Origin: Planctomycetaceae bacterium
GTDB lineage: Bacteria > Planctomycetota > Planctomycetia > Planctomycetales > Planctomycetaceae
Direction of reading: 5' to 3'
Length of the DNA: 64,000 nt
Assembly: GCA_019636285.1 (NCBI GenBank)
Contig: JAHBXV010000015.1
Span: 62,001 to 126,000 of the forward strand
Positions 20,879 to 60,519 of this stretch are shown here, in pieces. Each line of letters begins with the position of its first letter. The first letter of the stretch is position 1. The notes beneath the pieces were generated by a model. It did no database searches, was not told where the DNA came from, and saw only the letters and a list, made by a program, of their open reading frames with translations. The position numbers and the translations under genes are program-made.

Positions 20879-21586
20879 TCAGTGATTGCCCGATCCTGAA
20901 CGGGCAGCCAGATCATCATCTCCGGTTCGTAGCGACCGGCTATGACGCACGATCTCTCCTTCGACCAGATAAACAACGTCTTCAGCGATATTGGTGGCGT
21001 GATCGGCGATGCGCTCGATCTGTCGGGAAGCGGAAAACAGATGCATGGCCGGTTCGACAAGGTTAGGGTGACGCCGCATGAGCTGCGTCAGATCGGCAAT
21101 GATTCGGCGGTTCAGTTCATCGACGTTCTCGTCATCGAGACAGACCTTGCGCGCGATTCGAACATCGAGTTGCACGTAGGCATCGATACTCTTCTGCAGC
21201 ATTCCCAAGGCGAGTTGGCACATTTCCTTCAGATCGTCCGGCACGGGAACTTCCGGCGAACTCGCGATCCCGCAGGCACGCTCGGAAATACTGACGGCCA
21301 GATCGGCGACCCGTTCCAGCTCGGCCGAGATTTTCATCGCGGTGGTGATGCGCCGCAGATCGACGGCGACCGGTTGATGCAGCGCCAGAAGCTTCAGGCA
21401 CTCTTCCTCGATCCGGACATCCATCTCGTCGATTTCATCATCCCGCGCCATGACGAGCCGCGCGCGATCGAGGTCGGGCTGATGCAGAATCTCCACCGCG
21501 TCGTAGATCATCTGCTCGACGTGCGCGCACATCGACATGACCAGTCGATGCAGGGACTCCAGATCGCGACTGAGATGAATGGACAT
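20879..21586 (-). CDS. phoU: Phosphate signalling complex accessory protein PhoU
   Basis: A 235-residue all-helical protein made of two similar three-helix bundles, with metal-binding motifs near ARDDEIDEMDVRIEEECLKLLAL in the first and DDENVDELNRRIIADLTQL in the second. PhoU links PstSCAB to PhoR and keeps the regulon off when phosphate is plentiful. The frame extends upstream to 21634, but the ATG at 21586 (MSIHLSRDLESLHRLV) gives the normal start. It lies 173 bases before phoB in the same direction and 370 bases after pstB. Confidence 0.93.
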   Translation of the reverse strand: MSIHLSRDLESLHRLVMSMCAHVEQMIYDAVEILHQPDLDRARLVMARDDEIDEMDVRIEEECLKLLALHQPVAVDLRRITTAMKISAELERVADLAVSISERACGIASSPEVPVPDDLKEMCQLALGMLQKSIDAYVQLDVRIARKVCLDDENVDELNRRIIADLTQLMRRHPNLVEPAMHLFSASRQIERIADHATNIAEDVVYLVEGEIVRHSRSLRTGDDDLAARSGSGNH

Positions 21587-21704
21587 TCCCGTTGCTGCCT
21601 TCCCGCCACGCGCCGACGTTACCGACAGGAACATTTGCCGCGTGACATGACTAACCTTGTTCGAGCATCACGGTCGCCGAAGTAAATGAGACCGAAGATT
21701 TGTT

Positions 21705-21760
21705 AACCCGAAGCGTGAGCGCGGGAACTTCGCTTATCGCCCTCGCTCACGCTTCGGGTT
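21705..21760. repeat. 17-bp inverted repeat of a planctomycete interspersed type
   Basis: AACCCGAAGCGTGAGCG at 21705-21721 and its exact complement CGCTCACGCTTCGGGTT at 21744-21760, with a 22-base loop. The phrase CCCGAAGCGTGAGCG is familiar from intergenic repeats of planctomycete genomes. In RNA it forms a stable hairpin that may affect read-through from pstB to phoU. Confidence 0.75.
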
Positions 21761-21844
21761 ATCTTTCGCAGAGCGCCTTTTCGGAAAAACCTCTCATCAT
21801 TTTCCGTGGAATAACGTGCGGCTAATGGCTGCAATTTAGAGACT

Positions 21845-21920
21845 CTAACGCAACCTCCGTGTGATGATGTGTTTGCCTGGATTCTGGCACGTTTCGAACA
21901 GGCACAACCGGTTGTGTTAG
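21845..21920 (-). repeat. Structured 76-bp repeat, copy A
   Basis: Read on the minus strand it starts CTAACACAACC, continues GGTTGTGCCTG and CAGGCAAAC, and ends GGTTGCGTTAG, so first and last segments pair. It shares order and most bases with copies at 24919-24993, 42488-42563 and 42579-42655. It lies between pstB and phoU in the direction of transcription. Confidence 0.8.
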
Positions 21921-21956
21921 GGGCCCTTAGGGAATATTCCGCGATTCCAAGAATCA

Positions 21957-22820
21957 TCAGCCAAAGCGGCCTGTGATGTAGTCTTCGGTCTCTTTCTGCT
22001 CAGGATTGGTGAATATCTGCCGCGTGACGCCGATCTCCACGAGCCGCCCCAGGCAGAAAAACGCCGTGAGTTCGCTGATTCTTGCCGCTTGCTGCATGTT
22101 GTGCGTCACGATGACGATCGTGTAGTTCTGCTTGAGTTCGAAAATCAGATCCTCGATCCGCGCCGTCGAGGCGGGGTCCAGTGCCGAGGCCGGCTCATCC
22201 ATCAACAGGACTTCGGGGCTGGTGGCCAGCGCGCGGGCGATGCACAACCGCTGCTGCTGGCCGCCAGACAAGGCCATGGCCGAATCCCGCAGACGGTCCT
22301 TCACTTCGTTCCAGAGCGCGGCCTGCTTGAGGCAATGTTCGACCAGGTCGACGATCGTGCTTCGCCGACGCTCGCCGGCGATTCGCGGACCATAAGCCAC
22401 GTTGTCGAAGATCGACTTCGGAAACGGAGTCGACTTCTGAAACACCATGCCGATCCGCTTGCGGAGCGCGACAACATCGACATCCGAAGCATAGATATCT
22501 TGGCCATCGAGCAGGACATCGCCGGTGACGCGCGTCCCTTCGATGATGTCGTTCATGCGATTCAGTGATCGCAGGTAGGTGCTCTTTCCGCAACCGGACG
22601 GTCCAATCAACGCCGTGACCGCCCGTTCGGGAATAGTCATGTTGATGTTGAACAACGCCTGATGAGCGCCGTAGTAAAACGACATGTTGCTCGTCACGAA
22701 CTTGGGCGGACGGGCAGGCTGTTCTTCGCCGCCGTTGGCGGTGCGGCGACTGGAACCCGGAGGAACTGGACCTCCCGGAACGTGAATCGCTTTCAGGGGT
22801 GGCGGGGTTGACGACATCAA
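21957..22820 (-). CDS. pstB: Phosphate ABC transporter ATP-binding protein PstB
   Basis: A 287-residue ABC ATPase that powers phosphate uptake. Walker A is [20 protein letters not shown], the signature is [16 protein letters not shown], Walker B is [13 protein letters not shown] and the switch His lies in [14 protein letters not shown]. The N-terminal 40 residues (Pro/Gly-rich, [15 protein letters not shown]) extend beyond the usual start; the conserved part begins near [19 protein letters not shown], so a later start is possible, though none is better marked. It follows pstA by only 3 bases. Confidence 0.96.
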
Positions 22821-24844: not shown

Positions 24845-24918
24845 TAGAGTTTATCAATACGGTTGCTGGCAATCGGTCGTTGGCCGGACTCGATTTGCCG
24901 ACTCGCGGCTTAGAAACC

Positions 24919-24993
24919 CTAACACAACCGGTTGTGCAGTCAGAAACCTGCTGAATATCGGGCAAACACTTTATCGCACAGAGGTTGTGTTAG
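24919..24993 (+). repeat. Structured 75-bp repeat, copy B
   Basis: CTAACACAACC at the left end and GGTTGTGTTAG at the right end are perfect complements (11 bp); GGTTGTG directly after the left arm makes an alternative local palindrome. Lies between pstS and pstC, on the strand opposite to transcription; the hairpin still forms in the transcript. Confidence 0.82.
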
Positions 24994-25009
24994 AATCTCT
25001 TAACGACGA

Positions 25010-29835: not shown

Positions 29836-29915
29836 TCGTGTGCCACTGGCTCTGCCAGTGCCTCTTGTACATGCCAATCAACTAAAGGCACACTGGCGGA
29901 GCCAGTGGCACACGA
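29836..29915. repeat. GTGTGCCACTGGC inverted repeat, copy 1
   Basis: Left arm TCGTGTGCCACTGGCTCTG followed by CCAGTGCCT; right arm mirrors it and ends CCAGTGGCACACGA. Each arm contains its own hairpin (CACTGGC-TCT-GCCAGTG), and the arms also pair with each other. Two more copies lie at 49229-49304 and 60442-60519. Located between two co-directional genes, 40 bases after a stop codon. Confidence 0.8.
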
Positions 29916-41984: not shown

Positions 41985-42433
41985 GATGGCTCCCTTGTTG
42001 GCGATTCGGGCCTTGGTGCGGCCGATGCGTGCGCCCCTAACATTTTTCCCACTTGCTGAGCGGCAAAATTGATTGCCGCTCGTGTCGCCAGATTGACGAC
42101 CAGCCCCCCGATAATGGCCCCCAGGCCGGCCGCTCCCGCCGAAGTCGCGGGCTCCGAATTCTGCTTTCTCACGGTCTGTCGTTTAAACGACTCTTCAATC
42201 TTCTTGAGTTCGCCGGAAGAGAGACCCTTCCGACGCGGAACGAGCCAGTAGCCCACGGCGACCGCGGCCAACGCCGTTCCCCATGGAAAGTCGCGGACGT
42301 AATTCCGCCAGTCGACCATCTGCCGCGCGCCATCGACGATGCGTTCCACATCGCCGGGAAGCTTGCGACGAATCGCCGCCATCTGCCGACGCAGTTCCTC
42401 GCCACGATCCATAGGGAGATCGGTGTCGGACAT
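41879..42433 (-). CDS. Membrane protein of the CsbD/YqjD-like cluster
   Basis: A 184-residue protein from ATG 42433 (MSDTDLPMDRGEELRRQMA). It has a charged helix (RRKLPGDVERIVDGARQMVDW), a hydrophobic helix (FPWGTALAAVAVGYWLVPRR), a second one (AGLGAIIGGLVVNLATRAAINFAAQQVG) and a Pro/Arg-rich tail. Shape and neighbours resemble YqjD/DUF883 proteins, but I do not recognise an exact family. The tail overlaps the following small gene by 106 bases in a different phase. Confidence 0.7.
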   Translation of the reverse strand: MSDTDLPMDRGEELRRQMAAIRRKLPGDVERIVDGARQMVDWRNYVRDFPWGTALAAVAVGYWLVPRRKGLSSGELKKIEESFKRQTVRKQNSEPATSAGAAGLGAIIGGLVVNLATRAAINFAAQQVGKMLGAHASAAPRPESPTREPSWTPNGNVRAEAARQGGADKSQPMSHRFPNGRHNG

Positions 42434-42487
42434 CACCTGGTCCTTTGGAAGATCAGCGGGAAAGTCTGTCACGTCCGGCTTACCGCC

Positions 42488-42563
42488 CACGCACGACCGG
42501 TTGTGCCTGCCTGAAACGCGCCAAAATCCAGGCAAACGCCTCATGGCACGGAGGTTATGCGAG
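42488..42563 (+). repeat. Structured 76-bp repeat, copy C
   Basis: Left arm CACGCACGACC, inner segments GGTTGTGCCTG and CAGGCAAAC, right arm GGTTATGCGAG. Compared with copy B, positions 3 and 4 of the stem change from A-T, A-T to C-G, G-C on both sides, so pairing is kept although the bases differ. Confidence 0.78.
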
Positions 42564-42578
42564 AATCTTTTAGAACCC

Positions 42579-42655
42579 CTGACACAACCGGTTGTGCCTG
42601 TCGGAAACCCGCTGAAACTCAGGCAAACACGTCATTGCACGGAGGGTTGTGTCAG
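42579..42655 (+). repeat. Structured 77-bp repeat, copy D
   Basis: Left arm CTGACACAACC and right arm GGTTGTGTCAG are perfect complements; stem position 3 is G-C here, A-T in copy B and C-G in copy C. Pairing extends outwards through AGAA before the left arm and TTCT after the right arm. In tandem with copy C, 15 bases apart. Confidence 0.82.
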
Positions 42656-42661
42656 GATTTC

Positions 42662-43114
42662 TTAGTTGCGGCGCAACATCAGTGAAACCATGACACCCGC
42701 GAGGAGTCCGGTCCCAAAGGTCACCAGCATCGACTCCATGGGATGTTGACGGACGCAGGTGGCGGCCTGTTCGTAACCTTCTTCGACGCGATGGGCCACG
42801 TTTTCATAGCCATCGTACATAGCGGACGAGGCGGCGGAGGCGTATTCCTGCACCCGCTCTTGAGCTTGCCCGGCGTACTGCTGGACGGCTTCCGCGGCAC
42901 GGTTCACGGTTGACGATCCGGAGTGAACGACATCGCCGATGAAAGTTTCGATTTCGCGCCGCGCGGCTCCGGTCTTCCGTTCGATGACTCCGACCAACTG
43001 GTTCATGTTCCCTTTGGCCTGGGTCAGCTCATTGTCGGTTAAATCGCCCCATCGTTCCTGCAGCCGGCCCTTGAGATCGTGCCAGACTCCATTCAGTTCT
43101 TCGCGCGTAATCAT
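42662..43114 (-). CDS. CsbD-like/YqjD-like stress protein with C-terminal membrane anchor
   Basis: A 150-residue protein. The N-terminus (MITREELNGVWHDLKGRLQERWGDLTDNELTQAKGNMNQLVGVIE) is a CsbD-type domain, induced by stress in many bacteria. It is followed by long amphipathic helices rich in Ala and Gln, and an ElaB/YqjD-type end (VRQHPMESMLVTFGTGLLAGVMVSLMLRRN) for the membrane. So it fuses two stress-linked modules. ATG 43114 has GAGGAAG upstream with good spacing. First gene of the small membrane protein cluster that runs left to 41099. Confidence 0.82.
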   Translation of the reverse strand: MITREELNGVWHDLKGRLQERWGDLTDNELTQAKGNMNQLVGVIERKTGAARREIETFIGDVVHSGSSTVNRAAEAVQQYAGQAQERVQEYASAASSAMYDGYENVAHRVEEGYEQAATCVRQHPMESMLVTFGTGLLAGVMVSLMLRRN

Positions 43115-43525
43115 GATTGCTTCCTCTACTTGGCTGAAAGATCGAGACAACGGCGGGGTCCAACCAACTCGCCCGGCCATGACTCAAGAGCGATAAGCAA
43201 TCAGCGTGCCCACGCGGGTCGTCAGCCGCGAACGCCAGTCGCAAATAATTACCCCCCAACGCGTTACCGCCCCGAGATCCTGCATGCCAGTCGTGCTCGA
43301 GGCGAAGTGGGACGACGAGCCAGACGGGGAACTCGCCCGTTGGCGAGCCGAACTGGTTGCTGAGCATCCACCGGGGGATCAGTGGCTGAGGGTCGAAGGC
43401 CGGAAATTCGAAATCCGAAATTCTAAATTCGAAGCCAAAAGAGCCACACCGGTGTCCCCGGGCTGGCCGCTGGCCGCTGCTGGCTGATGGCTGACTGCTG
43501 ATGGCTGACTGCTGACGGCCGCACA
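43115..43525. other. Intergenic region with low-complexity repeat, left of the radical SAM gene
   Basis: About 410 bases. It contains GAAATTCGAAATCCGAAATT and a stretch of GCTGGC/GGCTGACTGCT words (43457-43515). The same two elements in the same order recur on the other side of the radical SAM gene (about 44590-44705). No gene is supported. Confidence 0.55.
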
Positions 43526-60441: not shown

Positions 60442-60519
60442 CGTGTGCCACTGGCTCCGCCAGTGCGTCTTTTGATCACCAATCACCTTAAGGCACACTG
60501 GCAGAGCCAGTGGCACACA
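60442..60519. repeat. GTGTGCCACTGGC inverted repeat, copy 3
   Basis: Left arm CGTGTGCCACTGGCTCCGCC then AGTGC; right arm GCACACTGGCAGAGCCAGTG then GCACAC. Lies between rimO and pgsA, where it could form a strong hairpin in the shared transcript. Confidence 0.8.

Follow-up and report, generated by a model that had tools for sequence, protein, structure and literature searches.

A dispersed inverted-repeat element with covarying arms in a Planctomycetaceae genome is very probably a MITE

Four short repeats in a 64,000-nt stretch of DNA from a Planctomycetaceae bacterium (hereafter, the window: the whole stretch that was analysed) are the local share of about 110 copies dispersed through a 6.37-Mb genome, and each copy is an insertion of ~88 bp with a direct 3-bp T-N-A duplication. 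We consider it very probable that the repeats are a MITE, a non-autonomous DNA transposon of ~88 bp that would be moved in trans by an IS5-family DDE transposase with duplication of its T-N-A target. The initial annotation had described a four-member family of structured repeats; all four copies are present as it described them, and the number holds for the window, not for the genome.

The full ends of the window copies and their target duplications were taken from the sequence, the earlier coordinates spanning the core only. Copy A (88 bp, 21839-21926, minus strand) lies between a pstB-like gene (21957-22820) and a phoU-like gene (20879-21634), and its two duplications read TAA on the minus strand (21927-21929 and 21836-21838). 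Among named organisms, those with the closest PhoU proteins are planctomycetes, Thalassoglobus and Fuerstiella among them, at top identities of 51-62%. Copy B (87 bp, 24913-24999, plus strand), with arms CTAACACAACC and GGTTGTGTTAG, is bracketed by TTA at 24910-24912 and 25000-25002. The remaining two, both on the plus strand, stand in tandem. Copy C (87 bp, 42483-42569), which has a degenerate left end and arms ACGCACGACC and GGTTATGCGAG, is preceded by TTA at 42480-42482, and copy D (89 bp, 42573-42661), with arms CTGACACAACC and GGTTGTGTCAG and core GGTTGTGCCTG...CACGGAG, is followed by TTA at 42662-42664. The TTA at 42570-42572 is common to both, serving as the right duplication of C and the left duplication of D, so that one element inserted beside the other. 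The flanks of every window copy are TAA/TAA or TTA/TTA. In the pstB-phoU region of distant planctomycetes no element was found, at a divergence too great for an exact empty site. Just past copy A, an inverted repeat, GAAGCGTGAGCGAGG...CGCGCTCACGCTTC, occupies 21710-21755, and the same motif also adjoins copies at C39:67159, C42:31134 and C25:54120.

The four copies have a mean column identity of 80% in their alignment. At stem pair 3, copies A and B have A-T, C has C-G and D has G-C; at pair 4, C has G-C and the other three have A-T (alignment A1). The matched stem changes noted initially are therefore real for these two pairs; they do not extend to every pair, as several others in copy C are broken or wobble. 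As RNA, copies B and D fold more stably than shuffled sequences (z of -3.9 and -3.3), and A and C do not (z of -0.8 and -1.2). A search of 42300-42800 for promoter- or terminator-like sites gave none, which leaves a terminator reading of that region unsupported.

Across the genome, the pattern CACAACCGGTTGTGC with up to two mismatches has ~106 matches, compared with 13 for a reversed-pattern control; with both counts considered, 106/110 against 13/11, the repeat is far above chance. A covariance model, R1, built from 30 copies (alignment A3), finds 118 matches in the genome, opposite-strand echoes included, and a profile search over the fetched loci resolves 110 distinct matches, two of which are halves of one split copy. 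The copies are spread over many contigs, with a few in tandem (C and D in the window; contigs C48, C40 and C27). The element measures 87-89 bp in the window copies, is without coding capacity, and ends in the terminal inverted repeats GAAACCCTAACACAACC and GAGATTCTAACACAACC. Focal copies have a median pairwise identity of 67%, so most insertions of this family are not recent. At C63:8861-9004 (L139), a focal MITE is split by a family-3-like MITE (see below) with CAA on both sides, a nested insertion.

Evidence for insertion comes from the flanks. Focal copies carry direct 3-bp repeats outside their ends (TTA/TTA, TAA/TAA, TCA/TCA, TGA/TGA and CAA/CAA), and the left and right triplets are identical in 27 of 93 copies against 10.9 in shuffles, a value reached in 0 of 5000 shuffles. 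The strongest coupling between left and right flanks over these 93 copies falls on the middle base of the triplet (z of 5.9). A separate palindromic host repeat, GTGCCACTGGC...GCCAGTGTGCCTTAAGTG..., has ~47 matches in an empty form with a single CTTAAG-like site, and focal copies at C34:16197 and C41:6829 fill it as CTTA[element]TTAAG. In genus g24, a sister-family element of genome G023 begins at the stop codon of a gene (...CGT TAG), and orthologues in G167 and G168 (71% identity) read ...CGT TGA at the same codon without the element, a comparison that covers the left junction only, the right flank being rearranged. Filled and empty sites, a criterion for a MITE, were found in this way both in the host repeat and for the sister-family copy of G023. 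The host repeat is itself a dispersed palindrome of ~72 bp with ends GTGCCACTGGC...GCCAGTGGCAC, present in the window at 29840-29911 and 60445-60516 and at many other loci (L148-L157), and the CTTAAG inside it is the MITE target.

Related elements occur in other genomes. R1 detects weak relatives in four other genomes of the same family, and the relatives in three of these share the architecture; an R1 match in G005 was set aside as a different palindrome. A second model, R2, built from 20 relative copies (alignment A5), recovers superfamily members in 15 of the 170 genomes of the family, which fall in 11 of its 58 genera; most of the 15 give between 15 and at least 24 matches. Two sister families reside in the focal genome itself, family 2 with arms GTTTCAAAACCC / GGGTTTTGAAAC and family 3 with arms CCGTCAAAACCC / GGGTTTTGACGG, each with the core of the focal family. 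Their loci include L176, L190 and L275-L298 (for example, C22:57734-57831 and C80:2045-2143). Parsed superfamily copies have GGTTG, mostly 43 nt, and then CAGA, at constant spacing. The arms differ among families (for example, GTCCGAAAACCC, ATCCTGGAACCC, GTTTCATAACCC and CCTAACAAAACC, or CTAACAAAACC in a MITE of G102) yet pair at 8-11 of 11 positions. Because the arms have been swapped for other complementary sequences while core and spacing were kept, the hairpin symmetry is really conserved. Between genera, the arms are less well conserved than the core; this would be unusual if the MITEs had different parents, and it speaks against the MITE model.

The likely mobiliser, judging from sequence comparison, is an IS5-type transposase (IS427/IS1031-like). 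Family searches over the whole genome found one 874-bp IS5-type element on contig C59 (L143, 1062-1935), carrying DUF4096 and DDE_Tnp_1. Its 16-bp ends, GAGGCGGTTTCAAAAC beside TA, are perfect, and its transposase is divided between two overlapping reading frames. Transposases in two reading frames are known for the IS427 group, and such a split is expected for programmed frameshifting. Family-2 MITEs end in GAGGYGGTTTCAAAACCC, the same right end as that of this IS, identical over 16 nt in L277. Elements of the IS427 group measure 832-865 bp, their ends 12-21 bp, and their duplications are mostly of 2 bp (PMC3281130); the resident IS is like them in its length, its DUF4096 and DDE_Tnp_1 content and the 16-bp ends it shares with family 2, whereas the focal MITE is non-coding and ends differently (CTAACACAACC). 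Compared with IS5 derivatives by their ends, sister family 2 agrees and the focal arms do not; compared by duplication, the T-N-A of the focal family and the TA beside the resident IS both agree. For the focal family, the IS5 assignment draws on the architecture it has in common with family 2, on its T-N-A target and on its GA-type ends.

Against this assignment, no IS with ends matching the focal MITE was found in the genome: all 55 exact matches to the CTAACACAACC end pattern in the assembly fall in known copies, with no autonomous element among them, and the resident IS and other IS5/IS4-type transposases lack the focal ends. Around the IS5-type transposases of G018, G020 and G023, searches for inverted repeats turned up no pair of matching ends; two elements of G018 show a single end apiece (GAGGCAGTTTCAAAACC and GAGGGAGTTTCAAAACC). 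A match to CTAACACAAC by a DUF4096 remnant in G020 (L164) was rejected as chance, since it apparently falls within a coding gene and lacks a partner end.

In the model that we propose, 11-bp covarying inverted arms, lying inside imperfect terminal repeats of ~17 bp, flank a constant core (GGTTG past the left arm and CAGA ahead of the right arm, in the relatives mostly 43 nt apart), and an IS5-family DDE transposase would act on this element in trans, duplicating its 3-bp T-N-A target. The insertion, the duplication, the family, the covariation and the placement are shown by the data, and the transposase and the cause of the arm matching are inferred from them. The arms would be bound to mutual complementarity and free to drift in sequence, which would explain why the sister families of other genera have different, matched arms. 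Symmetric reading of both ends by one transposase probably maintains the matching, together with template switching between inverted repeats during replication, which would copy changes from arm to arm, and an extruded hairpin needed in transposition could contribute.

The covariation itself is stronger than four copies showed. When focal and related copies are taken together, at least two Watson-Crick types are seen for most of the 11 outer pairs. In alignment A5, 7 of 11 pairs have changed on both sides, values that no shuffle reaches, and sliding the partner by one base lowers pairing from 95% to 63-69%. The inner stem shows U-A to C-G and C-G to G-C changes across relatives. Within the focal family, double changes are concentrated at pair 3 (31 of 102 copies). 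By bin, change amounts to 2-15% in stems against 0-40% and more in loops, and stem pairs are retained beyond what independent change predicts. An initial claim held that compensatory change means that folding is kept; folding is not the only cause, since matched changes are also known to arise when replication switches template between inverted repeats (PMC8794818).

Several explanations other than symmetric ends read by a transposase have to be weighed against this pattern. If the matched changes merely reflected a few masters with symmetric ends, without repeated compensation, the states of pair 3 should follow descent. MITE copies do descend from masters, and the right-flank types form subfamilies that cluster on a tree of the core (4 changes against 13.3 when shuffled); pair-3 states, however, are unclustered on the same tree (26 changes against 25.4 with shuffled labels), which, on a tree of ~55 positions that gives support rather than proof, suggests that pair 3 has probably switched many times instead of marking a few masters. 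We regard that explanation as improbable. It is doubtful, although possible, that the element is mobile and its arms match because the folded hairpin itself is selected, either as RNA, in transcript protection or processing, a role put forward for NEMIS or ERIC, or in the form of single-stranded or cruciform DNA that a mobility enzyme recognises. Covariation of both stems across genera, the lower rate of change in stems than in loops, the retention of pairs, the scatter of pair-3 changes across subfamilies and a weak excess of G-U over A-C in the inner stem (27:13, p = 0.04) all accord with it. An outer stem kept as RNA of this strand should likewise favour G-U, but mutations there leave G-U and A-C about equally often (34:30), which points to maintenance at the DNA level rather than by RNA folding. 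The folds of copies A and C do not surpass those of shuffles, the family occurs in both orientations to genes (in co-directional gaps, 27 copies are on the gene strand and 42 opposite), and symmetric recognition by a transposase or template switching would yield the same pattern without folding. A more speculative extension, which we think rather unlikely, is that the whole superfamily is selected as folded hairpins, with an enzyme or the cell reading the core (GG.TTG / CAGA around the inner stem) in extruded DNA or RNA; any pairing arms would then suffice, and mobility or tolerance would be guided by structure, not by sequence.

Far less probable is a host non-coding RNA, or a riboswitch-like switch between two exclusive folds, as first suggested. 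The focal left arm can indeed pair with the adjacent GGTTGTG, and neither the window nor seven copy-bearing loci gave an Rfam match above the gathering score, in keeping with the initial remark that no named family fits, so novelty is possible. This pairing requires the focal arm sequence: CACAA/TTGTG pairs at 5 of 5 positions in most focal copies and at only 1-3 of 5 in all related families, and there is thus no conserved alternative fold. A host regulatory RNA is also at odds with terminal inverted repeats, target duplications and empty sites that mark the copies as mobile, with their inconsistent strand and position relative to genes, and with the lack of a G-U preference in the outer stem. 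The initial annotation had held that a transposon with terminal repeats would speak against its reading; the terminal repeats are present, and the pairing constraint nonetheless survives. Slighter still is the chance of a REP/REPIN-type palindrome moved by a RAYT (Y1 tyrosine) transposase. The focal element is alike in being short, palindromic, extragenic and present in ~100 copies, and GTAG-tagged REPs have been reported from planctomycetes (PMC3733652), but it differs in size (~88 bp against 20-40), in its 3-bp target duplication and in its ends, the GTAG/CGTC tag is not constant, and a sister family has IS5-type ends.

As a MITE, the element has close counterparts in other bacteria, where MITEs with folding transcripts have been described (PMC2229807, PMC10969869). 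NEMIS/Correia, RUP and ERIC (~100-155 bp) resemble it in a length of ~100 bp, non-coding sequence, terminal inverted repeats, a short target duplication, intergenic sites, ~100 copies and end-to-end folding predicted for transcripts (PMC2229807). No sequence relation to them is shown, and the focal element differs in its planctomycete host, its 3-bp T-N-A duplication, the conserved core of its superfamily, arms that change in concert between genera and frequent sites at stop codons. A planctomycete MITE of this kind was not found in the literature searched, a limited search that does not prove novelty. The superfamily, with several families spread over at least 11 genera, arms replaced in concert and core and spacing unchanged, is a natural data set on which three causes can be compared, namely symmetric protein recognition, template switching and folding. 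It also carries a warning that intergenic repeats of bacteria may covary strongly without this implying a functional RNA.

The placement of the copies relative to genes fits an insertion that leaves genes unbroken. With genes called by a simple codon-based method, none of 107 copies lies within a gene, and the coding share of the genome, as judged on the window, is ~85%. A stop codon lies within 12 nt of the duplication in 45 of 104 copies and falls exactly on it in 20 of 104, compared with an expected 8.3% (p = 3e-4), the expectation being that 37 of the 445 intergenic T-N-A sites of the window are stop codons. Copies persist between genes, often precisely on a stop codon: TAA and TGA are T-N-A targets in their own right and are duplicated undamaged, and a target TA is converted to TAG by the terminal G that the element brings. 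Stop codons as targets, duplicated whole or rebuilt in this manner, offer such a parasite a simple means of inserting beside genes without breaking them. Copy D is an exact case, its right TTA (42662-42664) being the stop codon (TAA, minus strand) of a CsbD-like gene (42662-43180), and in nine other cases the stop codon is offset by one base, into the frame in which TA and the element's terminal G spell TAG, or nearly so.
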